Shown in pieces: positions 35,334-62,594 of a stretch of DNA of 64,000 nucleotides. The first letter of the stretch is position 1; every line of letters starts with the position of its first letter. A program made the position numbers and the translations under genes. This DNA comes from Halichondria panicea (lineage: Eukaryota; Porifera; Demospongiae; Suberitida; Halichondriidae), in assembly GCF_963675165.1 (NCBI RefSeq), contig NC_087388.1, positions 4,655,047 through 4,719,046 of the forward strand. Reading direction: 5' to 3'. The notes under the pieces were generated by a model. That model was not told the origin of the DNA. It made no database searches and saw nothing but the letters and a program-made list of their open reading frames with translations.

Positions 35334-35478
35334 CAGGAGTGCAACTCCTGCTTCTATAGTATTCTGTTATCATGTTTATTCTTCAGGTAATTATTTTTAT
35401 ACATTAATTTGGGGAATTAAATTAAGGTGGTTTGATTTGGGTGATTCAGCCTGTGCATGTCCTAGCAATAATTGTTTC
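33353..35478. repeat. Segmental duplication unit X, copy 1
   Basis: Starts at CTGAGATGAAATTGTTGAG and ends after the Rieske terminal exon, near CCTAGCAATAATTG. It matches 45405-48187 with high similarity, apart from a hAT-like insertion and small indels in the second copy. The preceding 32.4-33.3 kb is a diverged copy of spacer unit Y. Confidence 0.8.
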
Positions 35479-37028: not shown

Positions 37029-40000
37029 ATGATGCAAGTACAAGCAATCGTGCTCAGCACAGTCCTACTATTATGCTTGCCAACGTTGTCCATGTGTGAG
37101 TATCAAGTGATCAACACTGGTCGATTCGGAACAGACCGGAATACAATTGAGCTAGAATGCAGAAACAATGGTGTGGCATTACAAGGAGCGGTCTTTTGGC
37201 TTAATCGAGTCAGCAGAGAGAATGAGTTACTAGCATTGGGAGTTGATGTGACTGTACGTCCAGATGGTCGAATCGTGTTTCAGATTACAAGAGAACTGGA
37301 GGGAACATTCTTTTGTGGTCAAAACGTAGAAAATTTCGGTTCAGTTGGACAACAGTTGATTGGTGAGTGAGTGTAATTGGTAGCTTTTTTTCTATGTTTT
37401 CAGCAGAAATGTGATACAATATAATTATATCCGTCATAAAATGCATTTAATATGCTTCATTTTCTCTATAATAGCTTATCCTGACCAATTCCTATCACCA
37501 AATTATGAACGGACTTTCTTTGCCAAGGTTGGCACCACTGCTCGCCTGCATTGCTCCATTCTACCCGGGGCACTCAGGGCACAGTACTTTGCAGATTGGA
37601 GAAATGCCACAAGCTCTATAGAGGTTGCTAGACTCGATGGACCACGAGCCTCCTCTCCACTCTCCACCACTCCGGACCCAAGGTGGGTGTAATACAAGGA
37701 GTAAGTTACTGAATCCGAGCAAAGCGAGGCTATATAATGAGGTCAATATAATGAGGTTCAATCGAGATCCATCTTGGTGATAGTGCCAAGGGCGTATGAA
37801 GAGAAGAGGGCATGCAACTACAATCTATGGGAGGGGCGTGTGCATTAAAAATAGATTGCACGTGCACTTAATCCATAATAGTCACCAAGCCAGTTAGCTA
37901 ACTCGCTGGACCACATCTGACCTCAAAGCGAAACTGTGTTTATTAAAATAGATTCAAGACATTTTAACGTAAAACCAGGGTAGCTCAGATGGCTAGTGTG
38001 AAGACTTCCCCATGCATGCAGAATAGTATAATTATTATACAAAAATAACTGAATGAAAAAACAGAAACAACTTACTGTCCAACTTGGTGTGACGTCTAGA
38101 AAAAAGGAACATTTTTGTGCATGGGATGAGGTGCCTATACATGTGGTAAAGCATTAATGTTGGTTGTGCTTGTGGATGGGTGGGATGAAAAGACGAATAC
38201 AGGTTGAGTTTTGTAACAGTTTTGCACATTCCTACGGTTTTTATTATAATAAGTCAAAAGTTTGTTATAAATTATATACATGTACCGGTAATCAGATTTC
38301 CATTCTTTGCTTTTTTGTCGGTAATTTTGTCAAAAGCCACAGAAATGAAATGCAACAGCGATCGAGGACTTGCACCATGTGTATATTATATCATGACCCC
38401 TAGTAATTATATAACAATATACAGTGTACGTAATACACAATGGCCAGCAGTGATTAAACCTTTGATCAGTATTTTCAAAGCTGGTATATAAATCATATAA
38501 TTATTGTGAACTGCTTTAGGGTACGTCTCTAAGATTTTTTATCTGTGGAGTGCAGTCATAATTATAGTAACAACTATTGTCCATCCCATCCCTCCCATGC
38601 AGGTTCATGGTTGATGAGACGACGTTTGCCCTCATTATTGAGTCAGTGAGTCTATCTGATGCAGGTAACTACCAGTGTGTGCTCGGTGTGAGGGACCCGG
38701 CCGGTCTGCCTCTTATCTATCCCCAAACTGAGACACTCAACCTGACACTCGTCGTCTATCGTAAGTCTGAGGGATTATTCACAGAGGGATCTCTTCCAGA
38801 TTCACTTGGTCCTTTTCTTATATTTGGTATAAGTCATACTTGTAATATCGTAGATGGACTTGAATAATAAAGAACTCTGATTCATGACAAACAACACAGG
38901 TATTGAAGTGAACTAACTAGAATATGTATAAATATATAGAAGACAGCCGTTACATCATAAGTACAGTAGACACAGTTTACAACTAACACCTGATATAGTC
39001 TATTCAAGTTATGTCCTGCAAAGGCATGAATGTTCAAGACATCACAACACTCTAGCCCTGTTTCTCCTGCCTGCATGAGGCCGCTAATTCTATAACTACC
39101 GTATAGCGGGTAATTTCGGGGGACAAAATATTCGTGGTTCAGCAATATTGAGACATTTCGTGGATAATATTTTCGTGGTTGGAGCTTGCACTGCAGGTAA
39201 AGGTAGGCAAGGTCGCTTCATTCGTGGGTAAAATATTCGTGGTCAGACTTCCAACCACGAAAACCACGAATATTTTGCCCCACGAAAATTACACGCTATA
39301 CGGTATACTATCCTAGTGCATGCGAACGTGAAGCTTTTAATATTGCTACATATGCTTAAATATTCCTACGTTTTAATATAGATTGCTATCTTCAAAACAT
39401 GTATAATTATACCTTTGCCATCCCATTTAAGTTTATCATTGTCTTGTTACATATTATAATTATAGAGGCTCCAATAATCACCGAGTCTCCAAAGAACCGC
39501 ATCATTGCTCTTGATGACAACAGACCGAACCAAAGTGCCACCTTCCATTGTCAAGCAAGAGGGCAACCAAAACCTGAAATCAAATGGCTGCACCACTCAC
39601 CAGATATTGAAGACGATTTAAACTCAGACACGATTGGGAAATACTTATTACGTACAGATGCTGTAAGTACGCCAACTGGAGATTACATTGTCAGTAGTTG
39701 GTTAACTGTTAACACGGTGGATGCTTTTGATGCGGGTGAGGTGGTGTGCAGTGTAATGGCCGATGATGATGAACTACCTACTGATTTACAGACAGTACAG
39801 ACAATGGCTCAACTAGCTGTAATTGGTGAGTATTATATCTATACATCATCAAAATTAATGGTGTGATTATAACAAACGGCTACTTATTACTTGTCAATGA
39901 GTCAATGACTATTTGCTAAATCAACTGTATTTGTTTGTGGTATAATGTAATCAGAATGATTGCTTTTGTAGTGCGGTTGGTGGTAAAACAATACTGCATG

Positions 40001-41318
40001 TGCCATGCACGCTAAGTGGTTAATTACCTAAGTGCTTAAGATTTAATATGTACACAGATCGACTCATGCATGTGAGTACCTGTTTTGACATTCACATCAT
40101 TTTTTTTTTACAGGGAGCTTTAACAGTTTGGACCTACTAATTTCAACAAATGGCGACATCATATTTAAACTAAGACTACCTTATCCTATTCTGGTTCCTG
40201 TGCAACTATCTATCATCTACATGGACGCTAATGACAACAGAAAAATCTTTTCAAAAGTGACTGAAAATGCGTACATCGGTACAGACCTAATCACTCATTT
40301 TGAGCCAAGTTTTCAAGTCCCCACTGATTTTAACACTGTCAGGATCAGAATAGCCCTGCGGTATCAGAGACTACAAGGACCATTCAATGAATCGCCACTC
40401 ACATTCGGTATGTACTTATAGATGATGCATGAGTTATACTTATTCATGTTCATTGATTTGATTTGCTTAATTATTCTACACTCATATGTGACAGGCTCTG
40501 GGAAAAGGGCCAATTGGAGCCCATTGAGCAATAGTTACTTTCTTGGCTTATAGTTATCTAACTCTACAATCTTTCTACTACCTCTCCGCAAAATCTCTTT
40601 CCAACAAAGCGCTTTGTCTAAGCATCCACCATTACCTTACTTTTCCCAATTTAGTGAGTGAACGTTTCTCAATACTGCCCATGCACATAACTCAGGCATG
40701 GAACGAGGTATGTGCACACTAAGCATATCAATGCGTAGGCAATTCTTTGCTCTATCATCTGGTATATAGATCACAAAAATTATAGCTTGCGCTAATTGGG
40801 CCCTTTTCCCAGAGCCTGTATTTTCTTACGAGGTGCATTACATTTAATTATTCACATAGCAGGTAATTTGGGGGGAGGGTAATTTTGTGGTTGAATCTTC
40901 TTATTTGTTTACAGATATCCGACGTCCAAATTTTTTCAGAGAGGAGGAAACCAGTGTCAAGAGTGTGACTATCATCAGTATAGCTGGATCAGTCGTTGCG
41001 ATCTGTGTAGTCATCACTGTTTTGGTTGCAGTATTAACTTGTATCACATGTCGAGAAACGACAAAGCGCAAGCTGAAAGCAGCTCATGAAGATAAAAACT
41101 GCCACAATTTGGAAATGAAAGAACGCAATCTGGAAGAACGCAATCTGGAAGAACGCAATCCTCAGCGCACAATTAAACGGACTAACTCCCTTCCCCACCT
41201 TAACATTGAAAAATGTGAAGTATATCTGCTTCCTCCTGGCACAAGATCTAAACAAGATTTCTTGGCACTTTTTCCCCATATAGCCAGCAGTTTGTATAAG
41301 GAAATTTCCTCCCCCTAA
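37029..41318 (+). CDS. Ig-domain transmembrane receptor A
   Basis: Exons 37029-37362, 37475-37682, 38603-38760, 39466-39825, 40114-40407, 40915-41318; phases 1,2,1,1,1; 585 residues. Signal peptide (about 1-23). Ig-like domain 1 has C44-C96 (ELEC ... GTFFCG). Domain 2, split by the phase-2 intron, has C138-C206 (LHC ... DAGNYQC). Domain 3 is I-set-like with C262-C328 (FHC ... KW ... DAGEVVC). A fourth exon-encoded segment without an obvious disulfide (354-451) may be an FN3-like membrane-proximal domain. The membrane helix is at about 469-495. The tail of about 90 residues is basic with a tandem NLEER motif and a C-terminal SLYKEI that fits the ITIM-like pattern. Likely a cell-surface adhesion or recognition receptor; there is no kinase domain. 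Its ectodomain is nearly the same as that of receptor B. Ligand unknown. Confidence 0.85.
39097..39305. mobile_element. MITE, 'TACCGTATAGCGGGTAATTT' family
   Basis: 209-bp inverted-repeat element in receptor A intron 3. Left end TACCGTATAGCGGG and right end complementary (cgctatacggta), with inner ttcgtggtt / aaccacgaa arms. Confidence 0.75.
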
Positions 41319-41637
41319 TATACTTCTGTCATGTCATAGATCATATAGCTAATAGCTGCTTATAATTAATATTGTGCAAGCTACTTGGGTGATGGGTGAA
41401 GTATTTATAGACTTAAATGAGAACGACATTTAATCTAGATTCAGATTATGCTTTTTGTGATGGGTGTTTCAGAGTTCACATTGTGGTACGTACGTGGTGT
41501 TGATTATAACAAGTGTGTTACTACAGTGACCCGGAACCTCCAAATAACAGACAAGTTGATGCATGCAGGTTGTTTTGTTTGCTATTCGGAGGTGTCCTTT
41601 TTATTGAGTGTTATACACAATGCATATAAGTATGTTC

Positions 41638-41815
41638 ATTCTGACCGCTTGCATGACAATACCGCTTGCATATTGGTTCTGCATGACTGCTTGCATGATG
41701 ATACCGCTTGCATGTTCATTCATACCGCTTGCATATATTGGTTCTGACCGCCGCTTGCATGACGATTCATACTGCTTGCATGCATGTTTGTCTTGACCGC
41801 TTGCATGCCGAGTTA
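41638..41815. repeat. Irregular tandem repeat of ACCGCTTGCAT
   Basis: About eight occurrences of (a/g)ccgcttgcat or close variants, spaced about 15-30 bases, with 'ttggttctg' and 'gttcattc' between some. It gives low-complexity ORFs on both strands (ASGI-MQA type) that are not genes. Confidence 0.75.
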
Positions 41816-41987
41816 TCATTTTGGCACCAAAAACACACCATAAAATATTACCACTCAATATTGCTGAACCATGCACGAATAGTTTGTCCCCCGAAAATTA
41901 CCCGCTATATATACGGTATATTTGGAGTTGCATAATTATTCCTCCCTACTTAACAGTTCACACACAGTGATTGTTGTCTCAGCTCTA

Positions 41988-42840
41988 GCATTGTCTGGAG
42001 GGACAGCCCCTCACAACATGTGAGCCGGTTTGTGCCTTCTATAGAAGATTGCTTTATGTCTGTGACATGTACATGCATGCACGTGGTAATCCTATTGGGT
42101 AAAAATCAAAACTACACTGTAATAATAATGACTGCATGTGTATATATAATGTCCAGACCTGCAAATTTCTCATCTGCATGTGTGTATAACGGCCTTGAGT
42201 CATAGTATGTATTCTGTCATTGATATCTTGGTACTTATATACTGTGCTTAATTTGCAGTTCACTTGGATTTCTGGGACAATAATTATAGAAATACTTTTG
42301 TACAGTTTGCATGCATGCATGGGGCCATGTTTACTAGCACATAAAAATTATTATTTTGTAAGACATTATCAGTTACTGTTTGTATATAAACATATACAGC
42401 AATAATCGTTGCACACATTTTAACCCCATTTCCAACATCTATAGTGTCTCAAGCCATGAGCCAATTTTGGACTCATGCAATGGTATTGCACGCGTGATAT
42501 TGCTGCACATATAAGGTTGAACTATTTTAATATGAGCTATAGTTTGGCAAGCTCAATTGGTCAGTATAGTATTATGCAGTATAGATATAGCTTCCTGCAT
42601 GTGAGAAGATCCTTCATCCTTTCCTGTTCACATACTTTGTCCACTCATTTCAAGTTATACACTCCATACTTGCCCACAATCTCCCTTGCCATATGGACGG
42701 TAGTATTATGTTGAATACGAGATCTATAGTTCTAGATGTTTTTGGGAACGAAATATGATCTTGTGATCACATAAAATAGTACGGGGGATGTTAGATTAAT
42801 TGAGTTCCTGCAAACTGACACTGTCATGTGTCATGACTCA
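41988..42840. repeat. Spacer unit Y, diverged copy
   Basis: Shares with 43970 and 48517 the run 'agcattgtct.gagggacagcccctcacaac', the 'gttgaacta...tagtttggcaagctcaat.gg' segment and 'ctttgtccactcatttcaagtt'. More diverged than the other two copies. Confidence 0.6.
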
Positions 42841-43969
42841 TCCAACTAGAAAAACATTTGCAATGTGAAAAATTGCTAGGATTGGCCAGGGGAGCCATAA
42901 AAAAGCGTGGAAACAAGAAATCAGACGAGAGCATAACTCCAATCCGTTACAATGTCATGAATGATTCCCTTTCTTTTTCAGTACAATTATGACATGCATG
43001 GAACGTCAAGAGGCAGTACAGAAGTTCAAGAAGAGAAGACAGGACTAATCAGATATCTTCTCGAATATCTCTGGACTAATAATGAGTAATAATTTATATT
43101 GCTTGATATGTTGAATTTTTGAATCAGTATTAAATGACAGCCATTTTAAGAGCATGATATCTAGCCAGTGCATATAGCATACCTGTCAGAGAAAGGGAGC
43201 TAGAGCTGAACAGTGTGAAGAAAAGCAACACCCAGGCTCTGGAAAAGCACCAGAGGTACGCCAATGTCAAAAGGTCACTAATTAAAACATCACGTGGGCT
43301 TATGTTTTACATGTAAAAAACTGAGTTTACCCTCGCGCCTGTTGTACCACAAATCCGAAATGCCTAAAAAATAAGAAATGAAGAGCATTATGGGTGTGGC
43401 ACTGTGGGTGTGTCTGGAATTCGCACTCATATAATTGAAATGCGCGTGTGTGCGTGACACTATATAGTGTCATCTTATAAGAAAACCACAAGAGCTCTAT
43501 TCCAACACTTGTGTTGTATAGTGCAATTTTACCTAAAAAAAGGTCATCACTTTTCATCAGCAGTAAGCATGCGCAGTAGATGGCCCTGCCCACATTTCCA
43601 TTGAATGACATCATTCTAGTAACTACGCATGTGTGCAGTGCAGAATAGATGAGAGGATCAAGCTGAGTTGGAGTTGATGAAGCACAAAATGGGGGGGGGC
43701 TCTAGTCCCGTCAGCCCCCCTCTGCCTACGCCACCGCTGGTTTAACACAAAAATCAATGATACCGGTGCTGTTTTAACATTGATATCAAGTAACACGTAT
43801 GTATATAGTGTGCTATTTTAGGAGACATTCGAACGACACGCTACCACGTGTTAAAATAACATGTTTGTTTTTACAGTGTATGACTCGGCATTGCATGCCC
43901 TATCATTTTGGAATTGCATAATTATTCCTCCTCACTTAACAGTCTCACACACACAGTGATTGTTGTCTC

Positions 43970-45339
43970 AAATCTAGCATTGTCTAGAGGGACTCACTGT
44001 ACCAAATATTAGTGTCTTAAGCCGTAAGCCAATTTTGGATTCGGTATATGGCTGTGCATTCTAAGCCTTACCTGTGTTCCTTGTTATATCTGTGACGTGG
44101 TGGCCCTGGGTATAGCACTACATGATATTGCTGTATATAAGGTTGAACTATTCTATAGTTTAGCGATAATGCATGTGTTTGTACTTAAGAAACAGGGAGG
44201 CTATAATTATAGTGTATCTTTGGGAGGATGCTATTGCATGCATGGATTTAATTCACTGAGTATGTTTAATTACATCTTATATATAGTTGAGTATTACCTT
44301 TACAATCACACATGCATGTACTACCATCAGCTCCCTTTGTATCTCTATAATTATGTGTGTTCAGTGTGCAATCCTTGCATATAATTATCAACTTTGGCAA
44401 GCTCAATCGGTTAGTATACATGCTTTATAATTATAGTAATGCAATGCAATGCTGTGAGATTCTGAAGATGTTATAATCCTTTCCTTTTCACATACTTTGT
44501 CCACTCATTTCAAGTTTCTATAAAAGCGCTGCAATGGGTTAATTTTCACCGCTATAATTATACACACTCTATAGTTGTTCCCAAAATCCCCCTTGCCTTG
44601 GAGGGTAGTATGTTGGGAAGGAAATGTGATCTTGTGGTCAGACTATACATAGAATCGCACATAATTGTGGGTAGCTATATATAGCATATGCCAAATATGC
44701 ATGGTTGTGGTGCAAGTCGTATAATATTATGGCTGTGCGTTTTAGTACCGTATATAGTATAGGGGGATGTTAGAGCTGATAGTAAAGTTTCTGCAAACTG
44801 CATGTCATGTGTATGGCTTCATGCATGTGTGCATGCGTTGGGAAGTACCTAGTGCACATGTATAATACTATAATTATGCATGTATTATGCATGTTTCAAT
44901 TGTTCTTTTATGGTCATGCACATGAGAGCATATTAAAATACTGGTCTGTAATAGGTTCACACCATTTAAGCCAGCAGGAACATTCCCTCAGATTGAATGT
45001 ATTTTGGGTCTATATGCATGCCTTTGTGTGCATGCATAAAATTATATGCGCCAGAGACATACGATCATTATTATGTACATGTGTCTGTCTGTGCATTCCA
45101 TGCAGTTGTAATTTCTAAACAGTTACGCAATTAATAGGAACACAGTTAAGAGATTCGTAGGCTTCTCGGCACGTTTTATTGTTCTGTAATACATGTAGTA
45201 GCTGTTTTTTATGCTATATTATGGACGGAATTACACTCTATAAACAGCAACTTATTATTATTTGCATCGATGTGTGAAACATTCTAAAATGGAATCATAA
45301 TAATTATAATTAGCATGCTCTGCCATGTACTTTTAGGAC
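43970..45339. repeat. Spacer unit Y, copy 1
   Basis: Direct duplicate of 48517-50013, nearly identical over its last 600 bp. ORFs 44097-44384 and 44807-45118 fall inside it and recur in the other copy, but have no coding features. It ends at CTTTTAGGACA, immediately before the 56-bp receptor-C shard. Confidence 0.8.
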
Positions 45340-45345
45340 AACGTA

Positions 45346-45401
45346 TTCTTAGCTCTCTTTGAGTGCTGTCTATCCAATAGAAAAGATTTGGATAGTCAAT
45401 T
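45346..45401. pseudogene. 56-bp exact shard of receptor C exon 1
   Basis: The 56 bases here are identical to 59588-59643, an interior part of receptor C exon 1 that encodes the FYWIDSTQREL region. It sits exactly at the junction between spacer copy Y (ending 45339) and unit X (starting 45405). Too short to encode anything alone; it looks like filler captured at a rearrangement breakpoint. Confidence 0.85.
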
Positions 45402-47076: not shown

Positions 47077-47814
47077 ATATATGCCCCAAGGGCATACCAT
47101 AATATGCGTGGTGTGTCTGTCTGTGTGATCTAGCTGTTTCGGTGCTTTCCTCTTCACAATTCTACATTTCAAATAATTATTTTGTGGTCGGTCTACTGCC
47201 TTTGAGGGCATCCGGTAATAATTAGGCGTGTGGCTTCTATTGTTCTGCAATAAAGCCAATGAAGCACGTTCTATAGGTGTTCTATTAGAAATAGAGCCCA
47301 TAGCAACAATAAGTCGCGTGCATGAGATGTAAATCTATAATAGACGCTAAGTGCTATTATAGTGCATTTTAGACCAATTTAGGTGGTCGAATAGCGACGT
47401 TCCTACACCCATGCATAGTTAGTTGTTTTACCAGATATAAACTCGACCTATTATTATCACAACGCTGAGGCAGTATACATATAAGAACCTTGATGTCTAA
47501 TTTTAGCGAATTTGTAAATGTCTTCACTAATAAAACACTATGAACTCATTAAACATTTTGTTCTAATGAAATGTTTGAGAGTATGCTAAGCAAGCTAGCC
47601 CTTTCATTTATATCTGACTCCAAACTTTCAATTCAACCGTTGACGAATTTTTAAATTTGCTGCAATATCACCAAAATTCAGTACCGGCTTAAAAATCTGA
47701 AAACGTACCCGTCTATTATATGTAGTATTAGGTACGCATAATTCTATATGAAGTGAGCCTATAGCCTCGTGTATATTGCCCATCATTACTATCTCTACCC
47801 TTTTTGTCATGCAG

Positions 47815-48059
47815 GTGGACCACTGCACCTCGAGGACATTGAAGATTCTCTTTCACTAACTACTAGACAATCAACACCCTGTATTATCTGTCCCTGGCAC
47901 AAGTGGTGCTTTGATCTGAGTACTGGGAGACAGTTAGACCCACTTGGGAGAGAGCAGCACATACAATCTTATCCTGTTCGAGTAGATTCAGATACTGGGA
48001 CTATTTCTATTGGTTTTGCATCGTTCGATTCATCTTGTTTTACTGACTATGACTTCTAG
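47815..48059 (+). other. Duplicate Rieske terminal exon, intact
   Basis: 245 bp, same length, phase and acceptor type (tcatgcag|GTGG) as the exon at 35089-35333. It encodes the same CPWHKWCF half-domain and stop, with two substitutions (LADI to LEDI, TTGQS to TTRQS). It could serve as an alternative last exon for the Rieske gene about 16 kb upstream if transcription read through receptor A, or be an orphan. There is no local first exon. Confidence 0.75.
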
Positions 48060-48516
48060 ATCCTATATAGTATTCTGTTATCATGTTTATTCTTCAGGTA
48101 ATTATTTTCATACATTAATTTGGGGAATTAAATTAAGGTGGTTTGATTTGGGTGATTCAGCCTATGCATGTCCTAGCAATAATTGGTTTCTATCATAAAT
48201 ATAATTATACCAACGCATAATTTACAAAAGCGTTGGTGTCTATTTGTCAAATGTAAAGGTGAGGCGTCTCATAATGAATTTGGTATAAAGCATAGCCTCG
48301 TTCCCAGGCCTTATACTTTTTCTTGTTGTTGTCACTGTTCATCCATAAATCATAAGAAAGACATATAGTGAGGCAGTAAAGAAAGAAATGGGCGTACGTA
48401 AAGCTTACATCTATTTCTTTCTTTATTCCTCCAATCAATATCTCAATCTCATTGAACGATAATATACAGTATTTAATCTTATTGAACGATTGTGAGAACA
48501 TATATGTGGAATATCA

Positions 48517-50013
48517 TTAGCATTGTCTAGAGGGACAGCCCCTCACAACATGTTGATTGTGACACGTGCATGTAATGTCCTATAATTGCATGGGGAAAAT
48601 CAAAAACTATATGACTGTGCAATGTGTATGTGCATGTCACTGTGTGTGTTTATTCGATATCTTGGTACCTATATATACTCACTGTACCAAATATTAGTGT
48701 CTCAAGCCGTAAGCCAATTTTGTTGTGCATTCTGACCTGTGTTCCTTGTTATATCTGTGACGTGGTGGCAGCCGGCCGCCCTGCATGGGTATAATATTAT
48801 AGCACTACATGATATTGCTGTATATAAGGTTGAACTATATTCTATAGTTTAGTGATAATGTGTTTGTACCGTTATAAGAAACATATTTGGGAGGCTATAA
48901 TTATAGGGTATCTTTGGGAGGATGCTATTGTATTGCATGGATTTAATTCACTGAGTATGTTTAATTACATCTTATAGTTGAGTATTACCTTTACAATCAC
49001 ACATGCATGTACTACCATCAGCTCCCTTTGTATCTCTATAATTATGTGTGTTCAGTATGCAATCCCTTGCATATAATTATCGACTTTGGCAAGCTCAATA
49101 GGTCAGTATACATGCTTTATGCAATACTTCCTGTGAGATTCAGAAGATGTTATAATCCTTTCCTTTTCACATACTTTGTCCACTCATTTCAAGTTTCCTA
49201 TAATTATATAAAAGCGCTGCAATGGGTTAATTTTCACCGCTATATACACACTCAATAGTTGTGCCCAAAATCCCCTTGCCATGGAAGGTAGTATGTTGGG
49301 AAGGAATTGTGATCTTGTGATCAGACTATACATAGAATCACACATAATTGTGGGTAGCTATATATAGCATATACCAAATATGGTTGTGGTGCAAGTCGTA
49401 TAATATTATGGCTGTGCGTTTTAGTACCGTATATAGTATTAGGGGGATGTTAGAGCTGATAGTAAAGTTCCTGCAAACTGCATGTCATGTGTATGGCTTC
49501 ATGCATGTGTGCACTGGGAAGTACCTAGTGCACATGTATAATACTATAATTATGCATGTATTATGCATGTTTCAATTGTTCTTTTATGGTCATGCACATG
49601 AGAGCATATTAAAATACTGGTCTGTAATAGGTTCACACCATTTAAGCCAGCAGGAACATTCCCTCAGATTGAATGTATTTTGGGTCTATATGCATGCCTT
49701 TGTGTGCATGCATAAAATTATATGCGCCAGAGACATACGATCATTATTATGTACATGTGTCTGTCTGTGCATTCCATGCAGTTGTAATTTCTAAACAGTT
49801 ACGCAATTAATAGGAACACAGTTAAGAGATTCGTAGGCTTCTCGGCACGTTTTATTGTTCTGTAATACATGTAGTAGCTGTTTTTTATGCTATATGGACG
49901 GAATTACACTCTATAAACAGCAACTCATATTTGCATCGATGTGTGAAACATTCTAAAATGGAATCATAAATAATTATAATTAGCATGCTCTGCCATGCAT
50001 GTGCTTTTAGGAC
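48517..50013. repeat. Spacer unit Y, copy 2
   Basis: Direct duplicate of 43970-45339. It retains the 'gacagcccctcacaacatg' part that is deleted in copy 1, so neither copy derives simply from the other. The ORF at 49348-49794 is the same non-coding frame seen in copy 1. Confidence 0.8.
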
Positions 50014-50508
50014 AGTGTAAACAATAGCTGTAAAACAGACCAACTATAAAGTGATTCGTGAATAGCATTAACTGCCATTATGCCAGAGGATGTGCCAGGA
50101 TGTTTGGTCTGTGACTGTTTTCCAGGATGCTTGCAGCTTTGGCTATACGCATGGGAACTATTTGGAGACGTTCGTTGTGCGGCTAAATTACCAGACCATG
50201 TGTTCACCGCTAAGGTTAAATTATTTACTAACACTATAATAATGGCTTTGCTAGTACACATTTTACTCAGTTTGCATGGTTATAGGACTGTATAGTAACC
50301 CGGGTATGGTGTAATGTGTTTATTAATGATTGACATGTGTGCATAATGTATAACGCAGTTATGGCCAATTTTGGGGTCCAATATTGACATTCCAGTAGAT
50401 CTATACTAATTTGCTTAATTAGATTGAACATGAGATCGGTATACTGCTCTCAGTACATGTGTAAAGTGAGCCTCGTGTATTTTTGTTACAATTAATCGTG
50501 TCATGCAG

Positions 50509-50755
50509 GTGGACCACTGCATCTCGGGGACATTGAAGATTCTCTTTCACTAACTATACTGGACAATCAACACCCTGTATTATCTGTCCCTGGCACAAGT
50601 GGTGCTTTGATCTGAGTACTAGGAGACAGTTAGACCCACTTGGGAGAGAGCAGCACATACAATCTTATCCTGTTCAAGTAGATTCAGATACTGGGACTAT
50701 TTCTATTGGTTTTGCATCGTTTGATTCATCTTGTTTTACTGACTATGACTTCTAG
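50509..50755 (+). pseudogene. Third Rieske terminal exon copy, frameshifted
   Basis: 247 bp: the same exon with a 2-base insertion (ctaactaTActgg instead of ctaactactgg) that breaks the frame before the CPWH motif. Splice acceptor and stop position are still recognisable. It is the remnant of unit X nearest receptor B. Confidence 0.85.
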
Positions 50756-51217
50756 CGTTGTTTTTCATTAATTTTACATAAGTGGTTTAATTAATTCGTC
50801 TGATCCAGCAGCTTGCATGCATGCCTTAGTAATAAGTTATTCTCATAGCACATACGTTTTGCGAGACAGCCAATAAAGGTATTATGCTATTCATGCACTC
50901 CTATCCGCTAACGCACACAGAGTCACTGGCTTATTAAATCAACCGTAAAGCGTGGGTGTCTATTTGTCCAATATTAAAAGGGGGCGTAGCAAGCCATGAA
51001 AACACCCTGGGTATTCCCAGGCTTCTAGGATATAAGTCCAGGCGGCGTTAATTCTTTATGCAAAGCAGATTAACGCAAGAGCGTCGAGAAAAAAGTAATC
51101 GAGTGGTGAGTATAATAATGTCTAGCTAGACTAAGCTATAGCGGTATGTGTATTAAGGTGTGAACATGCATAATGACAACACCTTGCAGATAACAACTGA
51201 CAAAGAAGAGTCTCATC
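50756..51217. promoter_or_regulatory. Upstream region of receptor B
   Basis: 462 bp between the broken Rieske exon and the receptor B ATG. It contains a possible 5' exon donor (gtggtgagt near 51103). No coding sequence seen. Confidence 0.35.
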
Positions 51218-54200
51218 ATGATACAAGTACAAGAAATCGTGCTTAGCACAGTTCTACTATTATGCTTGACAGCATTATCCAAGTGTCAGTACGAAGTGAT
51301 CAACACTGGTCGATTCGGAATCATCCGGAATACAATTGAGCTAGAATGCAGAATCAATGGTGCGGCATTGCAAGAAGCTGTCTTTTGGCTCAATCGAGTC
51401 AGCAGAGAGAATGAGTTACTAGCATTGGGAGTTGACGTGACTGTACGTCCAGATGGTCGAATCGTGTTTCAGATTACAAGAGAACTGGAGGGAACATTCT
51501 TTTGTGGACAAAATCTAGAGAATTTCGGTCGAGTTGGAAAACAGCTGATTGGTGAGTGGGTGGTAGCTTAATTGCTTCATTTTTTTAAAATGTGATAAGA
51601 GACTGAATGTTTGCTCAATCAGTGCTTGCACTAAAACTGAATAGTTAGTAAATTCTGGGGGGCAAAATATTTGTGGTTTTCGTGGCTGAACACTGGACCA
51701 CAAATGAAGCGACCTTGCCTACCTTTACCTGCAGTGCAAGCAGCAACCACCAAAATAAGATCCACGAATTGACTAAATATTGCTCAACCACGAATATTTT
51801 GCCCCCCCCCCCCCCCTGAGAATTACCCGCTATACGGTATTATTCATTTTTAGTGCAAGCACAGGAAACAGGGATAAGGTCACACTTTATGCTTTGTGGT
51901 AAGATAGAGTCTTGCATGAGTGTTGCTGGTTTCTGTTGTGTGCGTGACATCCTCTAGCTATATCCATCGACATGTGGTAACTACTATTATGTTTTAACAA
52001 CAGAAGTGGTGCAAACTATATAGAATTCCCTATAGCTAATGTGTTCGCTTACCTCTGTATAAAGTGCAATCTGTCCCAGATTATTAATGACAGCAAGCAT
52101 TGTGCAACCGCACCAACTATTTTTTGCAATTTACAGTACATACAGTTATAATATGTAGTACAGGAAGGCTCGTTTCATTACATACTCGCGACATAAATTG
52201 AAGTGACTGTTTCATCGTCACTACTTTTCATGATAGTATAAAACCCGGCTTGGAAACAAACATTAATCTAGGTACTCTCCCAAAATGTTTGATGTCCATT
52301 TTAGTCATTGCATTGTCTGTAAAGCAGCTTTAACAATCCCACTGATAGGATGGAATTTTAAATAGCAGGTGTGTGTGTGTGTAAATTGAAGCCATGTGTG
52401 TATCATCACATGGTCCGAAATACCATGCAGTAGTATGACATGAGTAAGAAGGTGGTTAACGTAAGCTAACTGTAATGTATATTTTTCACCAGAAAATGAT
52501 TTAATATCTGTTTAGTATAAGAAGGTGGATAACTGAAACTGATGGCTTTCAGAAAACTGCTCTTTGATTAACTGATTTCCTTTTCCACAGCTTATCCTAA
52601 CCGGTTCATACCACCAAATAATGAACGGACTTTTTTTGCCAAGGTTGGCACCACTGCTCGCTTGCGTTGCTCCATTCTGCCTGGGGCACTCAGGGCACAG
52701 TACTTTGCAGACTGGAGAAATGCCACAAGCTCTATAGAGGTCGCTAGACTCGATGGACCACGACCCTCCCCTCCTTTCTCCACCACTCCGGACCCTAGGT
52801 GGGTGTAATTATAATAAAATAGGCGTAGGAATGAGCACCAAACAGTCTATTAATACTCATAACTTATGATGCAAACTTTTAATATCTAATCAGTTTCCCC
52901 AATTGTTTACATCATTCATTGTCAACATGTAGGGGATTTCTTTAGGGTTGATCCCTGGGGTTTTTTTTTATTATCTAGTCAGCACAAACTTAAGCTGATG
53001 CATGCGGGTTACAGTTCGCATATAATTTATACAGTATATACACTAAATCAATACCACATGCAGTTCTATTTATAATATTATTGGCAGTATTTTAGTGTCC
53101 CTTCGTCTTGCCATCCAGATTCATGGTTGATGAGACGACGTTTTCCCTCATCATTGAGTCAGTGAGTCTATCTGATGCGGGTAGATACCAGTGTGTGCTC
53201 GGTGTGAGGGACCCGGCCGGTCTACGTCTTATCTATCCCCAAACTGAGACACTCGACCTGACACTCATCGTCTATCGTAAGTCTGAGGGATTGTTCACAG
53301 ATTCACTAATAATTAATTTTGGTCTTTTGGTATTATAGTATAGTTTTAATAGAGTAATGGGGAATGTTTCTCCTCTCCTATATATATCTATGAGCCGCCA
53401 TGCATGGGTGCACTCTAGCTATCCCAGTGCATGTTAACGTGAAGCGTTTGGCTTCCGTAAGCATAATTACATGTGTATGTATCAAACCATCTATATAATT
53501 AGATCATAATTACCTTTGCCATAATTAATTAGAGGCTCCAATAATCACCGAGTCTCCGGAGAACCGCATCATTGCTCTTGATGACAACATACCGAACCAA
53601 AGTGCCACCTTCCATTGTCAAGCAAGAGGGCAACCAAAGCCTGAAATCGAATGGCTGCACAACTCACAAGAAATTGAAAACGATTTGAACTCAGACACAA
53701 CTGGGAAATACGTAGTACGTACAGATGCTGCGAGTACACCAACTGGAGATTACATTGTCAGTAGTTGGTTGACTGTTAACACAGTGGATGCCTTTGATGC
53801 GGGTGAGGTGGTGTGCAGTGTAATGGCCGATGATGATGAACTACCTACTGATCTACAGACGGTTCAGACAACGACTCAACTAGCTGTAATTGGTGAGTAT
53901 TATTATCAATTTGCTGTGGTTATTGCTTTGATAGAACATAGCCTCATTCATAAATAATATTAATGACATCCGTTAATCCGAATGTATTCGGATGGAGTCT
54001 GTACAATTATTATAGTGGGGTTAATTATGTTGGTGGTAAAATACTCTGCCACACACACTTTATATAAGTGGCTAATTATCTAAGTGCTCTGTACACAAAC
54101 TTCTGAGTGTGAGTTACTTGTTGTGACATTCACTTTTCTTTTTACAGGGAGCTTTAGCAGTTTGGACCTACTAATTTCCACAAATGGCGACATCATATTC

Positions 54201-55386
54201 AAACTAAGACTACCTTCTCCTATTCTGGTTCCTGTGCAGCTATCTATCATCTACATTGACGCTAATGACAACAGAAGAATCTCTCCAAGGGTAACAGAAA
54301 ATGCGTACAACGGTACAGACCTAATCACTCATTTGGAGCCAAGTTTTCAAGTCCCCACTGATTTCAACACTGTGAGGATCAGAATAGCCCTGCGGTATCA
54401 AAGGCTACAAGGACCATTCAATGAATCGGCACTTACATTTGGTATGTATACCTAGTAGCTTATGTGAATGATGTGTTTTTTTAAGCCCATATCCGGCTAA
54501 CAAGTGCACAATACACAACAATTGAATGCAACATTTGGACTGTGCTTTTCGATATATACAGTCCATATCGATATCATATTATTTTCTGTTTTTTACAGAT
54601 CTCCGACGTCCAAATTTTTTCACAGAGGAGGAGGCCAGTGTCTGGAATGTGGCTATAATCAGTATAGCTGGATCAGTCATTGCGATCTGTGTAGTCATCG
54701 CTGTTTTGGTCACATTGCTAACTTGCATCGCATGTCGACACACGATGAAGCGCAAACATACCAGTCACATGGCAGACATTGCTAGAATGGAAGCAGGTCA
54801 TAACCAAATTCTAGCAGAAAAACATAGCGATAATCAAGCAGAATTGAACATACTTCGAGAAAACCATGAGCAGATTATTAAAAAACTTGATGAAAATAAT
54901 GAAGCAAAACTGAATACATTGAAAGAAGAAAACGATGCAGAAATTGAAAGACGCACTCTTGAATATGAAAGAAACCAAGAATCAACAAATCAAAAATACA
55001 AACATGAGCTTATGTTACTCGAAGCAAAACATGAACACGAAACTAGACTGAAACTCTTGGATATGTATTCCGATAAAATGTCAGCTTGCAATGGTGGGGG
55101 CTTTAAAATTACTTATATAGTTGGTAAAACAGAAATATCAATTGAAAAGAAGAACACCAGTTGTGGGGATATGATAGATGGACCACATACAATGTACACA
55201 GCACAAGCAGTGGATAAGCGACCAATGTTACTCAGAGGAGAGAGTATCGACTATGGGAGCAACTTCCAGTTAGAGCAAGAGTGTGTGATTGACTGTTTCA
55301 AGAATATTGTGGAAGCCAGTATGAAAGACTCAAGGATTGGACCAACACTACGGAGATTAGTATCAACTGACCAATTAGAAAGATAG
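51218..55386 (+). CDS. Ig-domain transmembrane receptor B
   Basis: Exons 51218-51551, 52591-52798, 53119-53276, 53533-53892, 54148-54441, 54599-55386. The first five exons have exactly the same lengths and phases as receptor A (334, 208, 158, 360, 294). 713 residues. The ectodomain repeats A almost residue for residue: three Ig-like domains, then the membrane-proximal segment and helix (NVAIISIAGSVIAICVV). After CRHTMKRK the tail is unrelated to A and about 220 residues long. It starts with a strongly helical, Glu/Lys/Asn-rich coiled coil (AEKHSDNQAELNILRENHEQ) and ends in a region with Cys, Asp and Gly that I do not recognise. Probably a surface recognition receptor using a different intracellular output or self-assembly mode from A. 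Most introns are phase 1, suited to domain exchange. Confidence 0.87.
51645..51839. mobile_element. MITE, 'gctatacgg' family
   Basis: In receptor B intron 1. The right end attacccgctatacggta matches the family; the left end is partly degraded. Contains the C-run and 'cacgaatattttgcccc' typical of the copy at 39097. Confidence 0.65.
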
Positions 55387-55703
55387 CTATAGTTATTGTT
55401 AGTAGAATTTTTTAAACTTCACTTATTTTGTTCAACACTTGTTCACTGTAAACTCACTATAAATTATTAACAATCATGAAAAATGGAGTGTCAAACTGTC
55501 AATGCTAGCTATAATATAACACACAGTCTATATATATAATTATGTAAAACAGATACGTTTTAATAACATAAAACATCTCAAATAAAATGCATCATTTGAA
55601 ATTTAATGTAGAAATGACATAAATTTCTGTCAGTTTAACAGCACGATGATGCATCCCATATAACATAATTATGTGTTTTTGGTGTGCATGACTAAAAATA
55701 AAC
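55387..55703. other. Tail-to-tail 3' region, receptors B and C
   Basis: 317 bp separate the B stop (plus) from the C stop (minus). From about 55565 the sequence repeats the region upstream of receptor A (about 36715), so this is a duplication endpoint as well as the shared 3' flank. Confidence 0.5.
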
Positions 55704-58316
55704 TTACACACAAGTTTCTTTTTGGGTACAATATCCTTGCCCACTATATACTGAAACAGTCTCCTCTATATCAGCTGGTTGTCTTGTATCTGCAGCGTCT
55801 TCACTATTTAGCATAGTATATGTGATAGACGGCTTGAGCAATTCCTTGATAGTTTTAAAAGTATTCTTAGTTTCCTTCTCTTCAGCACTCTCTCGGAAAC
55901 AAAATGGTCGCCAGTGTCGTTTAGTTGTACTTGATTTCCTCCTGGTAGTCACAGGTGGTTCTTCCTCAGGGGGCATAGCACCTGGATATGTCGGACCAGA
56001 AACTGCACCTGCCGGTTTGCCGTTGGTTTCTTCAGATGGGATCTTAGGTGATTTTTGCTTCAAAGCTTCCAGTACCTGGTTTAGTGTTAATTGGCCAGGC
56101 AAATTGTCGTTGACAAACTTTGTTTGTGCACCTTTTGTGTTGGCTTTGAAGGAGCATTCCAAGGCTTTTTTTCGTCCGAAACAGAGGCAGAGTAGAACAA
56201 TCAAAACTATGGCAATGATGATGAGTGCAAGGAGCAGGAAAAGTCCGGGAACGAGGAACGTCACAAGGATAATTGACAGCTCAGTTGGTAGCGATCGATC
56301 TGTGAATGTAGTAACAATGAGTATATACTGTGCGTACGCATATAATGATATTGCGTGAAAATTGAAGTAAAACATGCTTTGTGTCCAGTCCAAAATAGCT
56401 CCCAACAAAATAATGACAGGAAACGATTAATTTTGCTAATTAGCTTGAAAAATGTGCTTATACTAGAACGTGGGTGCACCTTTTTAATTAGATTACGGCT
56501 ATTTCGACGCTAATAACAATGAAACCTGCATGTCTATAGCGGGCATACCAACGGTGGCTGTAATAAAGATGTGGTCACATGTTATAATAGAGATTTTGAG
56601 GCCCATTTTACCTAACTGTATACGAAATAATTATGTGAACCTGAAGTAGCCATTAGCGGAATTTCACTGAATCAGCGACTCTGAACCGTGCTTCAGGCGT
56701 ATTGTACCTCATACACATCGCAAAAATTAATTGTCAGAGGCTACTCTAACTTACAATTAGTTACTTTCCCGTCCACCCCCCGCATGCATACTGATCATGA
56801 GCTACATATCACATTGAACTGTGCTACTGATCATGACCTCTGAGCTGTAGGAAATCATATGGTTTTGTTATTGCATCAATTTTAAAGGATTTCATGATAA
56901 TTATTATTGCTATTACATAATACAAACACACTTTCTGCTCGCATCCTCTTTTTAAAATTGGAGTGGCCTAACGTTATAGAGGGCATGCACTGTTGTGGAG
57001 GGTAACCTGCTTTTACTGGCTAGGGTGAACATGCACAACAGACATGCTCACTCTTACCGTGTGTAACTTGGTCTCCTTTCAGAGGTCCAGTATTAGACTG
57101 ATGCATTAGTGCAACATCAACTGTAAAGCGTTGGTAAGGCATCGTGTCATCAAAGTGAGTAATTTCCTGCGACTGAGTGAAACGGCTGAGAGTTATGGTA
57201 TTGAGTGAATCACCAGTGTCAATATCAGTGTACTTGATAAACAGTTGCACTTCAGCTGGTATGGGTACCTCAAGAAATACCCGAAAGATAATAGTTTGTG
57301 AGACTGTGATGAATGTAGACAATCTCTGCACTTCACCTGCAGCATGCAATATAGAGTATATGAAATGGACAGGTTACAAAACACATTATCCACAAAGGAA
57401 TATCATAAAAAGACTCCCAAGACAGTCTCCTATACATGACAGTATGGTCAAATGAACTGGTCAACGCACTCAATGTTCTTCTTACTGATGTGTTGATATA
57501 CAGTAATATTATGCATTGTGCACACTGAAAGTGTAACTCGTATACATGTGTGCGAATTATAGCACTTACCTAACACTGACAAGAAAGCTGTTGCAGTGGT
57601 TTTAGCCGACTCGCCATCACCCGGTCTAATAGTGCCTGTACAAGTCACGTTCCCACTGTCATAATTATCCAGACTCTGAATCGCAAAAGAGCTCTCAAAA
57701 ATAGTATCTTCTACTCTTGAAAAATTCAATATGTATTTGTTTCCGTTCCTCAAAATTTCTTTGCCGTTATGCTTCCAGGAAATCTCCAGTGAAGGGTATC
57801 CTCTTATTCTGCAGTAGTACGTTACTAATTGGTTGGCATCAGAAGTGGATAAGACAACAACTTGAGATTCAGGTGGTTCCATAAAAGTCGGTGGGACTGT
57901 ATAATTATAGGAAAACAATCAATTTGTGTGACTTCATAACCTTTGGAGTATAATTATAGTAGTATAGGAGTTTATCTACAGTGCACCTGTTTTAGAGGGT
58001 CACCAGTGGCAGTATAATTATTATAATAAACAGAGCCCATACTAACACACATTGAGGTTCAATAAAGGTAGTGGGACCGCATGGGAAATAGTGTGAATCA
58101 TAATAAACTATAGCCTATTAATTTGGGCTATAGTAGTAGGTCCGGAGTTTTTTTACAGCGAAACGTGTTTTAGAGGGTCACCAGTGGCAGAATTATAATA
58201 AAGAGGTGGTTAAGACTGACTATGTGATACTTTGGCTTCTGGTTCAGTCTAATTGCATGTGGGCGGGAGGATTTTGCATTATTACCCTATGCGTGTGCAG
58301 CAGGGGTAGAGTGATT

Positions 58317-58352
<36 letters not shown>

Positions 58353-59783
58353 TGTTTGTGTGTGGACACAAAAATGAGCTGTTTGAGCGAACTAGACAAT
58401 TTCATGGACTGCTTTAACTGCTAATGAGACAGTGGTTGAAAAATGAATATAGCTAGTTGAAACTTGTAGGCGATCTTCGAGTGACAAAAAACACTGTTAT
58501 CTAATCAATCTAATCGTTGTTTTTATGAATTTACGATCATGCATTCCCCATACAAATATTAAGGTCATTATGGTAAAAAGTTGTATCCATTTTGCTGCTG
58601 TGCGTTGAAGCGTTGAAGCTCAACGCACAGAGTGCATCTTGTATTACTAAGTTTAACCTGATGAATAATAATTATTATGAATATGCAAATGAGTTTCATT
58701 AACATACTAGCCATAATTAATGATGCGAGGGTGTACCAGAAACTACTTGGCATGACAGCAATAAAGTTTCACTGTACTATAGGGAACACATGCACCGCTT
58801 TTAATACACATCTCACTAGCCAAGAGGCTATAGAACTGAATGCTATCCTACTACAGCTGGCACGCACAATGCATCACCATGACATTGTACTTCCATTAAT
58901 TGTACAATTCTATTTCTGAATGGCTTCTGGTAGCCATGTGCATGCACTGACGGTACAGGGTGATATAAATCAAGGCTTCTCTCACCATACACATCAAGGG
59001 TCACTCCTAGCCTCTGAGTCTGCGTGTACAGAAACATTTGTCCTGCAGGATCAGCCACACCCACAACCCCGAAGTATATGCCTCTGTCATCGAAGGATAC
59101 TGATTGAATAGTGAGAGCAAAAGTTTCTGGATTAACAAAGTATCTTGAGTTGGGATCCAATGGCAACAAACTTCGACGAGGGCCTTGGATTCTACCGATG
59201 GTCTGTGAACTGTTGTCTAGCCAGTCAACGTAGTATTGTGCTAATAAACTTCCAGGGAGTACTAATGGATTGAGCACTGCATCACTACCGATTCGCACTG
59301 TTTCTTTCTTTGATTCAAGTTGAGAAGATATTAATGGAAAAGCTGCAGATATATAGGGGAATTAAGAACAAGCACAAGCCATTTAGCGCTGCTTCAATAA
59401 ACTAATGGACATGCTATAGTAGATTATGCACTGCACGTAACTTTTTTCTAGCACTCACCTATAAGAGGTTCCATTCCACTAATGGTGTTCACATCACTAC
59501 CACAGAAGTACAATCCTTCAAGTTCTCGAGTAATCACAAAGTTAAAGCCTTGAGAGTTTTGTGAATACTTTTCTTCTCCCAGTATATTTCTTAGCTCTCT
59601 TTGAGTGCTGTCTATCCAATAGAAAAGATTTGGATAGTCAATTAGGTTGACATCTCTGCAGTTTAATGCTAGTTGGTTTTGATTGATTCCTGCTCCTCTG
59701 CTTGTGATGAGCTGAAAAGGACCTTGCTGGGCACTGCAATACTGCAGCAGCCCGTTGAGAGATAGCAGAAATAGTAGTAGCAT
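55704..59783 (-). CDS. Ig-domain transmembrane receptor C
   Basis: Exons (minus): 59783-59459, 59342-58986, 57896-57570, 57336-57058, 56299-55704; every junction is phase 1; 627 residues. Signal peptide MLLLFLLSLNGLL. The first domain shares ITRELEGLYFCG with A and B (ITRELEGTFFCG). Domain 2 is a single exon here, where A and B have an intron. It lacks the usual second cysteine (RGIYFGVVG). Domain 3 is a clear C2/I-set Ig (TYYCR ... ISWKHNG ... DSGNVTC). Then come the membrane-proximal domain, the helix (LFLLLALIIIAIVLIVLLC) and a tail of about 150 residues. The tail contains ITYTML (588-593), which matches the ITIM consensus, and a second Tyr cluster (VSVYSGQGY). The likely function is cell-surface recognition with possible tyrosine-based signalling; ligand unknown. 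Confidence 0.87.
58317..58352. repeat. (TG)n microsatellite
   Basis: About 17 TG units in the receptor C intron between 57897 and 58985. The same intron holds two diverged copies of a 'tttagagggtcaccagtggcag' segment (57991-58012 and 58169-58190). Confidence 0.85.
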
Positions 59784-60111
59784 TTCTTTACTTGTTCATT
59801 AGAGTCTAGTCTATCCTCACAGTCACTGTTTCTACTGAGTATAAAATGTAGTTCATTTGCTTGTATAAATTGTCGGTTTGTTGAGCACGTGACATTGACG
59901 ACGTCACCGCCGCAACTAGTATTTTGTGGTAAAGTTATGATGTTATTATGCTAATTGTAGTCTGTGGTAAAATTTGTGACCCATATTTCTGATTACGAAA
60001 TTTGATGAATTGTTTTGGCATTGAAAATTCACAAATAGAAAACAATTAATACACACAACTAAACCAACTGAAATGTACAACCATGCATATGCACTTCATA
60101 AATTTATATAT
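59784..60111. promoter_or_regulatory. Upstream of receptor C / 3' flank of receptor D
   Basis: 328 bp between the C start and D stop, both on minus. Contains tgacgacgtcac-like text (acgtgacattgacgacgtcacc at about 59886-59907), which includes a CRE-like TGACG. Function unproven. Confidence 0.35.
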
Positions 60112-62594
60112 CTATTCGTTAAGAGACCTAAATAATTCTTTTCCTTTTTGAATTGCTTCTTCTCTAGTGCATTTTTTATACGGTTTTATTTTTCTTCTTT
60201 CTCTTGCACATGATTTTCCTTTTGTTTTAATAGGAGAGAGATCACTCGGAGGCACACAAGTGACTCGTTTATTGTTATTGTCAAAGACTACACTGAGGGT
60301 AAGTGCTGACGGTTCTTCCGCGTTTTCCATATGTATTGAAGACTGAGCCGATGTTATGCAATTATACTCTTGGCATGGTGGTGGACCACTTGAGGATACA
60401 ATTTGTGTGCCATTGTGAACTGTCTCGTATTGCTCTTCTATATGTTGAAAATAATCTAGCAAATCTCCGACTTTTTCACACTTTTGATCACAAGTGGATT
60501 TGGGGTTATCTTGTACTTTTTTAAGGTTTTTGTAGAATTTATAGCTACCTGTTTCAAGGTAATTGTGTTTGCGAATGTCTTCTCTATCATTTATCCAGCA
60601 CTTGATGCAGCATAAGATTGAAATACAGAATAGAAGTAAGCACACTGTGACGAGTCCACTCCCTACTGGTATTGCTATTGTGATCAGTCGCTGGTAGAGG
60701 GAAAACTCTGCATATTAAAAAAGGGGTTATTGGTGCATGCAAGTTTATTCTATAATATTATCAGACGAGGCATGAAGCATACACATGCAACTATCTATAC
60801 TGCTCATGTTAAAATTCCTTAACTTAGCAAATTAAAGCATGGCCTGTGTTTATTGAGAAATTGATAAACACGATAATTTATTTTACCGTTTTTTATCTCC
60901 ATTGACAGATCCTTGCTCATGGGGAGACTGGATCTGGATCCTCTGCTTTCTACAACCGTCACAGAAACAATAGACGTAAACAATGCTTCTGGAGGGTCAT
61001 CGTAGACAAAGGTTAGTGAATTAGTGTTCATGTATACTTCTGATGTCGTAAGAGGCTCTTGCCCATCCTCAAAGTCTAGTTGTATCCGTAAGCCAATTGG
61101 TATCATCACATCATCACCGATATTGACAATGAAGATTAACTTATTCTCAACTGTCCGGTAAACATCAACATCGAAAATGTCTGCATGAAGATGGAAGCAC
61201 ATAATTATACTTATACTGGTATCAGTTATAGCTTTTCATTGCAATTTATATCTGTAAATTTTGCTTACTTAAAACAGAAAAATTTGCAACTATTTTTGAG
61301 TCGTTCACAGGAGGTATATCGCCACCAGGTTCCACAGTAGCCACACATCTCACGCTTCCGCTGTCTACAGGATGAATGTTGTGTATCATCAAAATCCTGG
61401 TCACTGTGTCTTCACTGTCTTGGTTGGGAGCCATTTCTTTAACGCTGTATTTTGCAATTGTAGAAGAGGTTGAGACTGGGTTTCCATTGTGTTTCCACGA
61501 AATAGTAGGAGCAGGAAAGCCCTTAGCTGTACATGTGAACTGCGCAACAGCATTTTCTTCGTACTTCATGGTCACGCTCACTAGTTCCTGCATGATTCTG
61601 GGTTCTTCTGCAAATAGAACAGCTAATTGCATGCATACAGGTGTAATCTACCTACCGACCACCTATCTGCATGAGGTTAATTTTTTAGATCTAACATCTA
61701 AATAAGCGTAAAAAATCCTACAAAGTAGTTCTGTATAATTATAAGATAGTGCTCACCGTAAACTTCCAGACGTATACCCATACTTATGGTCTGCATATAG
61801 TTCATTTCAGAGGCACCTTCTGCTTCCATAACTCCGAGTTCCCCAAAATAATTTCCAGCATCAGTATGACGAGTTACACTCTCTATTTTCAAAGAAAAGG
61901 TGTTAGGCTCCACAGAAAATCGTTCGATTCCTTGATTTATTACAGTGTTCCGGAGTCCTCTGATTGCACCTACCGATATTTCATTGGTACCAGTCCTATT
62001 CTTCCAGTCAATGTAATATCGAGAGAACCAAATACCAGGTCCAATGTACGGGGGAAGTATCGCTGTAGTTCCACTCTTTGCTCTAATGGTGATACTCCCA
62101 TCAAGTGCTACTTGATGGTCAGTTGATGGTTGAGCTGTAATAAATTATAGGGCATGCATAAAAAACTGCCTATTATATATTAAAGGGTCTATATGCTGTA
62201 ATGTATGGAAGGAATTAAGCTGTTTAGTATCTGACAATAATATAATTATGCTGGAACAAAATTAAAGATACTCACCTATTACATTCACAAAATCACTGCC
62301 AGAAACTATATTTATATCGTTACTGCAAGTGTACTGCCCCTCATTTTCCAGTCTATCCACTAAAAAAGTGTAACTGTCAGTGGCTGCATCCATTACTGAG
62401 GATTCAAATGTGCCATTTTGAAAGAAAAAGGCACTACCATCGAGGGTTCCACCTCCATTCAGTCGACAGGTCAGTTGTACGCCATTTGAAGAAAATCTCG
62501 TAAAAACAATTTCATAAATTTGAGCATCTGCTTGGCTGGCTAGAAAGCAGGTCATCACCAAGACCACTGCAACAGATACTCCTCCTCCAATCAT
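60112..62594 (-). CDS. Ig-domain transmembrane receptor D
   Basis: Exons (minus): 62594-62276, 62134-61757, 61607-61269, 61180-60887, 60707-60112; all junctions phase 1; 641 residues. The signal peptide follows MIGGGVSVAVVLV; an acceptor-like cag directly upstream suggests a non-coding 5' exon, and an alternative ATG lies at 62603. Domain 1 has LTC ... GQYTC. Domain 2 has an Ig-like WKN and DAGNYFGELG but lacks the second cysteine, as in C. Domain 3 is a canonical C2/I-set Ig (QFTCTAKGFPAPTISWKHNG ... DSGSVRC). A membrane-proximal exon, a helix (SGLVTVCLLLFCISILCC) and a basic tail of about 165 residues follow. The tail has several tyrosines (NYLETG, EQYETV) but no strict ITIM. Exon layout equals receptor C, so C and D are an older duplicate pair. 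Likely a surface recognition receptor. Confidence 0.85.

Follow-up and report, generated by a model that had tools for sequence, protein, structure and literature searches.

What would four neighbouring receptor genes with similar outer parts and different tails do in a sponge, and could they form a self/non-self recognition complex? The genes, here called A, B, C and D, lie in a window of 64,000 nucleotides of Halichondria panicea DNA, the whole stretch that was analysed (C12:4655047-4719046, in a searched genome of 131.5 Mb in 39 contigs). A and B on the plus strand and C and D on the minus strand, all intact, occupy positions 37029-62594 (25.6 kb), the ends of this span being the start codons of A (37029) and D (62594). 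A preliminary description had read them as a cluster of paralogous immunoglobulin (Ig) receptors with varied tails, and their shared exon plan, the matches between their Ig2 domains and their differing tails support this. Judging from sequence, they belong to a small type I family of the immunoglobulin superfamily (IgSF), with six members and a likely seventh, that appears to have arisen by duplication. Its predicted outer plan of Ig1-Ig2-Ig3 and a beta domain, followed by one helix, is conserved, and the tail is different in every member. With a probability of roughly 0.45, we believe that A-D are surface recognition receptors that couple similar ectodomains to different cytoplasmic partners, and that A and B form a set resembling paired receptors. 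The A/B pair is a clear case, outside vertebrates, of ectodomains that are kept while the tails differ.

The comparison of A and B carries most of this argument. In the spliced model of gene A (37029..41318, 6 exons, 585 residues), the first exon (37029-37362) encodes the signal peptide and Ig1, the next two (37475-37682 and 38603-38760) Ig2, the fourth (39466-39825) Ig3, the fifth (40114-40407) the membrane-proximal domain and the last (40915-41318) the helix and tail. Gene B (51218..55386, 713 residues) also has six exons (51218-51551, 52591-52798, 53119-53276, 53533-53892, 54148-54441 and 54599-55386), with nearly the same ectodomain and a long tail. The start codons of the two genes are 14 kb apart, and their ectodomains can be aligned through 451 codons with no indel, 399/451 residues being identical; synonymous divergence (dS) is 0.178 (0.129-0.231), nonsynonymous divergence (dN) is 0.055 (0.041-0.071), and 169/193 fourfold-degenerate sites (87.6%) are identical. 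On the resulting dN/dS of 0.31 (bootstrap 0.21-0.48), the ectodomain divergence is purifying, and the upper bound of 0.48 rejects diversifying selection on the ectodomain overall. The four domains share the 52 amino-acid differences evenly (15, 14, 13 and 10; p 0.90). A higher ratio was found for the juxtamembrane and helix part, although on the few sites of the first 50 codons of exon 6 (dN 0.151, dS 0.200).

The last exon is common to A and B through the helix and then changes abruptly, ungapped DNA identity being 23-29 of every 30 bases for the first 150 bases, then 14 and then 5-10. There is no DNA similarity beyond base 41071 of A or 54755 of B, neither tail-coding part (41072..41318 in A, 54756..55386 in B) retrieves the region of the other by DNA, and past residue 52 of exon 6 an ungapped comparison finds 2/38 residues identical. 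Both tails are open frames, that of B over 216 residues. Used as a protein query against the genome, the B tail matches itself only, and the A tail, which contains a 15-base tandem repeat (41119-41160), finds itself and one match with stops (E 0.09).

Between the similar exons the introns have diverged. Their lengths in A and B differ approximately 3- to 9-fold (112/1039 bases for intron 1, 920/320 for intron 2, 705/256 for intron 3 and 507/157 for intron 5), and their local alignment scores (25, 30.5, 36.5 and 20, respectively) compare with maxima of 22, 30, 30 and 20.5 among 30 single-base shuffles per intron. Intron 4 scores 70.5 against a shuffle maximum of 28.5; it can be aligned over its full length, though with many gaps, at 189/242 identical positions, where shuffles under the same lenient settings average 73%. 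When the ten 60-base intron ends were compared, the clearest similarity was left at the 3' end of intron 4 and the 5' end of intron 3. Some others exceed shuffles by about 2 standard deviations, but intron 5 at either end and intron 3 at its 3' end do not. This remainder suggests at least partial homology of the introns, yet they look older than the exons. A control is provided by fragment E, a 0.7-kb copy of exon 3 of A with its intron flanks, about 294 kb before A (C12:4397107-4397793; L043: 2107-2793). It is 96.6% identical to A overall, with 99.4% identity in the exon, 98.5 and 98.7% in the introns and 16 gap columns, which indicates that introns here keep their similarity initially. The A/B introns, by comparison, look diverged well beyond the fourfold sites. 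No further exon of A was matched in the 5 kb searched around fragment E; a frame near it resembles, by eye, a retroelement integrase.

The minus-strand genes have five exons each: gene C (55704..59783; 59459-59783, 58986-59342, 57570-57896, 57058-57336 and 55704-56299) encodes 627 residues ending in ETCV, and gene D (60112..62594; 62276-62594, 61757-62134, 61269-61607, 60887-61180 and 60112-60707) encodes 641. In the spliced models of A-D, the proteins are uninterrupted by stops, introns are GT-AG in 18/18 cases and all inter-domain introns are in phase 1; an extra phase-2 intron interrupts Ig2 of A and B, but not of C and D. A-D are predicted type I membrane proteins that start with a signal peptide and continue through three Ig-like domains and a membrane-proximal domain to one helix and a tail. 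In a Pfam scan of provisional joins, with C and D lacking tail and helix, Ig_3 was over the cut-off in A, B, C and D (E 6e-14, 3e-16, 5e-11 and 3e-16), and of the five proteins scanned, A-D and H all carry Ig domains of the immunoglobulin superfamily over the curated cut-off. The single helix is distinct in each protein (19-residue hydropathy 2.7-3.7). The preliminary description of four Ig receptors in this span holds in these respects, as does its ITRELEG.(F/Y)FCG string, which occurs in A, B and C; member G, introduced below, carries the related ITRDLEGMYTCG. The relatedness that it claimed for A-D was recovered with Ig2 of A as query, which retrieves C (E 2e-21) and D (E 8e-11). Judged by hydropathy, its signal peptides are supported in A, B and D, whose N-terminal segments pass the threshold of 1.6 that we set; that of C falls under it, so that the signal peptide of C is the least sure.

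An Ig2 profile of six genes matches many solved Ig chains, the best being the polymeric immunoglobulin receptor (E 2e-11, with no single stretch passing alone), and Dpr-interacting protein, contactins and JAML, which are adhesion proteins, are among the others. The Ig1 profile matches Fc receptor-like protein 5 (E 1e-8). The cysteine pair of Ig2 is kept in A, B, G and H; Ig2 of C and D has no cysteine and that of F a single misplaced one, which fits a single loss in the C-D-F group. Some Ig domains of the Alr allorecognition proteins of Hydractinia are likewise without the canonical cysteines. The predicted structure of Ig2 of C (predicted local distance difference test, pLDDT, 39.5) carries no information. 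The membrane-proximal domain is about 95 residues long and has no cysteine. Its model, built on the four sequences of the window, has a mean pLDDT of 79.8 and six strands, the last 11 residues being below 50, and from the number and spacing of the strands the domain may be FnIII-like. Pfam gave no match to this domain in member 1 of 6 and two weak ones, one each in other members (E 0.12 and 0.15); the best match by sequence among solved structures was Rab-1B (E 0.16).

The genome was searched with Ig2, Ig3 and the membrane-proximal part plus helix of A, and with Ig1-Ig2 of G, F and H, the match counts being lower bounds. Two further genes with intact frames follow the five-exon plan: F on the plus strand, about 280 kb from the cluster (C12:4997543-5001488), and G on the minus strand of another contig (C2:3002649-2997915). 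Gene H (C2:3011743-3008668, minus strand), about 6 kb from G, has the same exon plan as G and is likely to belong to the family; its membership rests mostly on layout and location, since in sequence it is only weakly similar (at best E 0.0016, to Ig3 of A; E 0.14 to Ig2 of G). Its membrane-proximal exon (L057/L070) encodes a second hydrophobic stretch (residues 334-357, hydropathy at most 2.0) that is absent in the other six. A tree of the seven ectodomains unites A and B (100/99) as well as C and F (93/93), the latter pair being joined by D (83/89); the branches of H, D and G are long, and the grouping of G and H carries a warning that it is unsafe. With H left out, identity per ectodomain domain is 21-53% among the six genes for pairs other than A/B. 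Ig3 of A has at least 27 matches in the genome, of which six are A-D, F and H; distant relatives may be among the 21 others, in the groups that lie on C4, C8 and C9, and none of the 21 was matched by the Ig1 and Ig2 queries. One more weak match came from an Ig1-Ig2 query (C4:849101, E 0.37). None of 58 pattern matches in viral contigs was a relative. The Ig and cadherin genes point to an animal, and cathepsin-like genes of this genome showed no clear silicatein mark. Intron 4 of F (L004: 2505-3267) and intron 3 of G (L041: 111-873), on different contigs, share at least 763 bases at 99.5% identity, probably a young mobile element. Word searches, to which most subscription papers are closed, found no publication on this receptor family and no paper combining 'paired receptor', 'sponge' and 'Porifera'.

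The tails of the seven genes do differ, as first described. By eye, that of B is long and coiled coil-like, those of C and D are polar, and those of F, H and G are Cys/Pro-rich, Ser-rich and helical, respectively. In a Pfam scan none of the seven (0/7) had a domain over the cut-off, TIR, death and kinase domains included; weak matches to DUF4011, FapA, CAGE1, YfbU and Rap1-DNA-bind, all under the cut-off, were rejected as tail domains. When all tail proteins were compared with the filter off, the matches besides A/B lay mostly in or near the helix, and two extended into the tails: G/A (25% over 106 columns, helix included, E 0.001) and C/B (20%, E 0.94). We take both, without proof, as chance or composition.

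We propose that the Ig ectodomain would bind a ligand, whether on another cell, on a microbe or in the matrix, and that each tail would couple this binding to a different cytoplasmic partner. Since the ectodomains of A and B are alike and their tails have diverged, one ligand, or two similar ones, would elicit different outputs from the two receptors. Purifying selection, perhaps together with exon-limited gene conversion, would have kept their ectodomain exons alike during the divergence of introns and tails. Neighbouring genes with near-identical ectodomains and different tails are features of paired receptors, and in vertebrates the extracellular regions of Siglec-11 and Siglec-16 are kept alike by conversion and have opposite outputs, according to the accessible part of that report (PMC5701461). 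As far as the same partial sources go, A and B resemble the Siglec-11/16 and CEACAM families in near-identical Ig ectodomains, different tails and possible homogenisation of exons. Unlike the vertebrate receptors, they have neither a contrast above chance between immunoreceptor tyrosine-based inhibitory and activation motifs (ITIM and ITAM) nor a charged residue in the helix, and beyond the Ig domains there is no evidence of common descent. We use the paired receptor as the closest working analogy and do not claim membership of that class, as opposed signalling motifs were not found. A bolder version, in which a non-bilaterian animal independently evolved a paired-receptor system, with exon-limited conversion keeping the binding face, opposite tails balancing the response and the tail changing at every duplication, seems to us rather unlikely.

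Several observations weigh against recognition by paired-type receptors. The seven tails hold three ITIM-like strings (one each in A, C and G) where shuffles average 1.2 (P 0.12), no ITAM was found in any of them, the tail of B has no recognised signalling motif, and none of the seven helix cores contains a charged residue. ITIM signalling as a trait of the family was rejected on the same count. A gapped protein match between the last exons of A and B, with the filter off, reaches residue 90 of exon 6 of A, past the helix, so that the two tails may be distant homologues rather than replacements; we read this match as charged low-complexity sequence, but the first part of the tails may be distantly homologous. 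The similarity that remains at several intron ends means that ordinary turnover of indels may account for some of the intron contrast, and gene conversion of the A/B exons is no more than a possibility. Moreover, much the same picture would result from an ordinary recent duplication after which one tail changed.

That last explanation is the rival that survives best, though we regard it as unlikely. A and B would then be young tandem duplicates under purifying selection, one tail having been replaced or having decayed by chance with no functional pairing, and the other genes would be older and have assorted roles. The dS of 0.18 is that of a young pair, the 15-base repeat in the A tail is what a decayed or newly made tail might have, and the neighbourhood is rich in local repeats (33352-34151/45404-46196, 97%; 35011-35478/47730-48190, 93%; 34030-34640/47077-47676, 80%). 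However, plain young duplication does not predict introns far more diverged than fourfold sites, and both tails, including the 216 residues of B, are open frames.

Doubtful, too, is a role in homotypic or heterotypic cell adhesion, during development or for the cohesion of tissues, in which the tails would engage different partners from the cytoskeleton or with PDZ domains. In the accessible part of a review, sponge IgSF proteins are tied mainly to adhesion and recognition (PMC11999971), which counts for this role, as do the adhesion proteins among the many matches of the Ig2 profile and the lack of focus of the A/B differences on one domain. The same holds for the ETCV at the end of C, which we take to fit the class I PDZ ligand consensus. 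Among adhesion molecules it is less usual to find seven differing tails and two ectodomains this close to identity, although this is not decisive. We find it harder still to see the family as innate receptors for microbes, whose varied tails would give different downstream outputs: the best solved match of Ig2 is the polymeric immunoglobulin receptor, and in three sponges the genes regulated after a challenge with microbes include Ig-domain genes, as reported in the accessible part of that study (PMC8242945), but a TIR, death, kinase or other Pfam domain over the cut-off was found in 0/7 tails.

Least probable is a complex like Alr of Hydractinia, where fusion or rejection depends on polymorphic ectodomains: the clustering of single-pass IgSF genes and their low identity (here 21-53% per domain, outside A/B) are as described for Alr in the accessible part of that work (PMC11067881), but A and B have a dN/dS of 0.31 (0.21-0.48) with change spread evenly (p 0.90), and this small family with one partial copy (E) compares with at least 41 Alr loci and 44 pseudogene-like models there. 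Of the self/non-self complex first suggested, the receptor cluster therefore stands and allorecognition is unsupported, since the single assembly says nothing on polymorphism and the one measurable pair is purifying. The likeness to Alr is one of layout only: as in the description of Alr, type I single-pass IgSF genes that differ widely from each other lie in a cluster, here four in 25.6 kb. In contrast to Alr, this family is smaller, is spread over three sites on two contigs and has a purifying A/B divergence. Compared by their partial descriptions, the Geodia receptor tyrosine kinase, the Geodia adhesion molecule and TIR-Ig receptors also have extracellular Ig domains; unlike in the Geodia kinase and the TIR-Ig receptors, no kinase or TIR domain is present here (0/7 tails). 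For the long-standing question of self and non-self in sponges, a small, countable family with a near-identical ectodomain pair provides concrete genes.

The window has other features. A 63-base tandem repeat of 3.2 copies (63327-63529) lies inside a minus-strand open frame in which Pfam at E 0.001 found no domain. Repeat pieces before A and between A and B (35011-35478, 47730-48190 and 50499-50756) are 93-98% identical pairwise; the frame at 47757-48056 matches a Rieske ferredoxin family over the cut-off (E 3e-8), that at 31446-32039 has a Rieske match under it, and a Pfam scan of that at 50537-50752 gave no match. A 1.2-kb direct repeat, 93% identical, also lies between A and B (44111-45327 and 48798-49997). 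Tandem 2-oxoglutarate/Fe(II) oxygenase frames at 21395-22408 and 22599-23567 on the plus strand share about 80% DNA identity. Finally, cadherin repeats (Pfam Cadherin E 2e-48) occur in a 760-residue open frame on the minus strand (5345-7624), which has a hydrophobic segment towards its end and then a short tail, and is a putative further adhesion-type receptor near the cluster.

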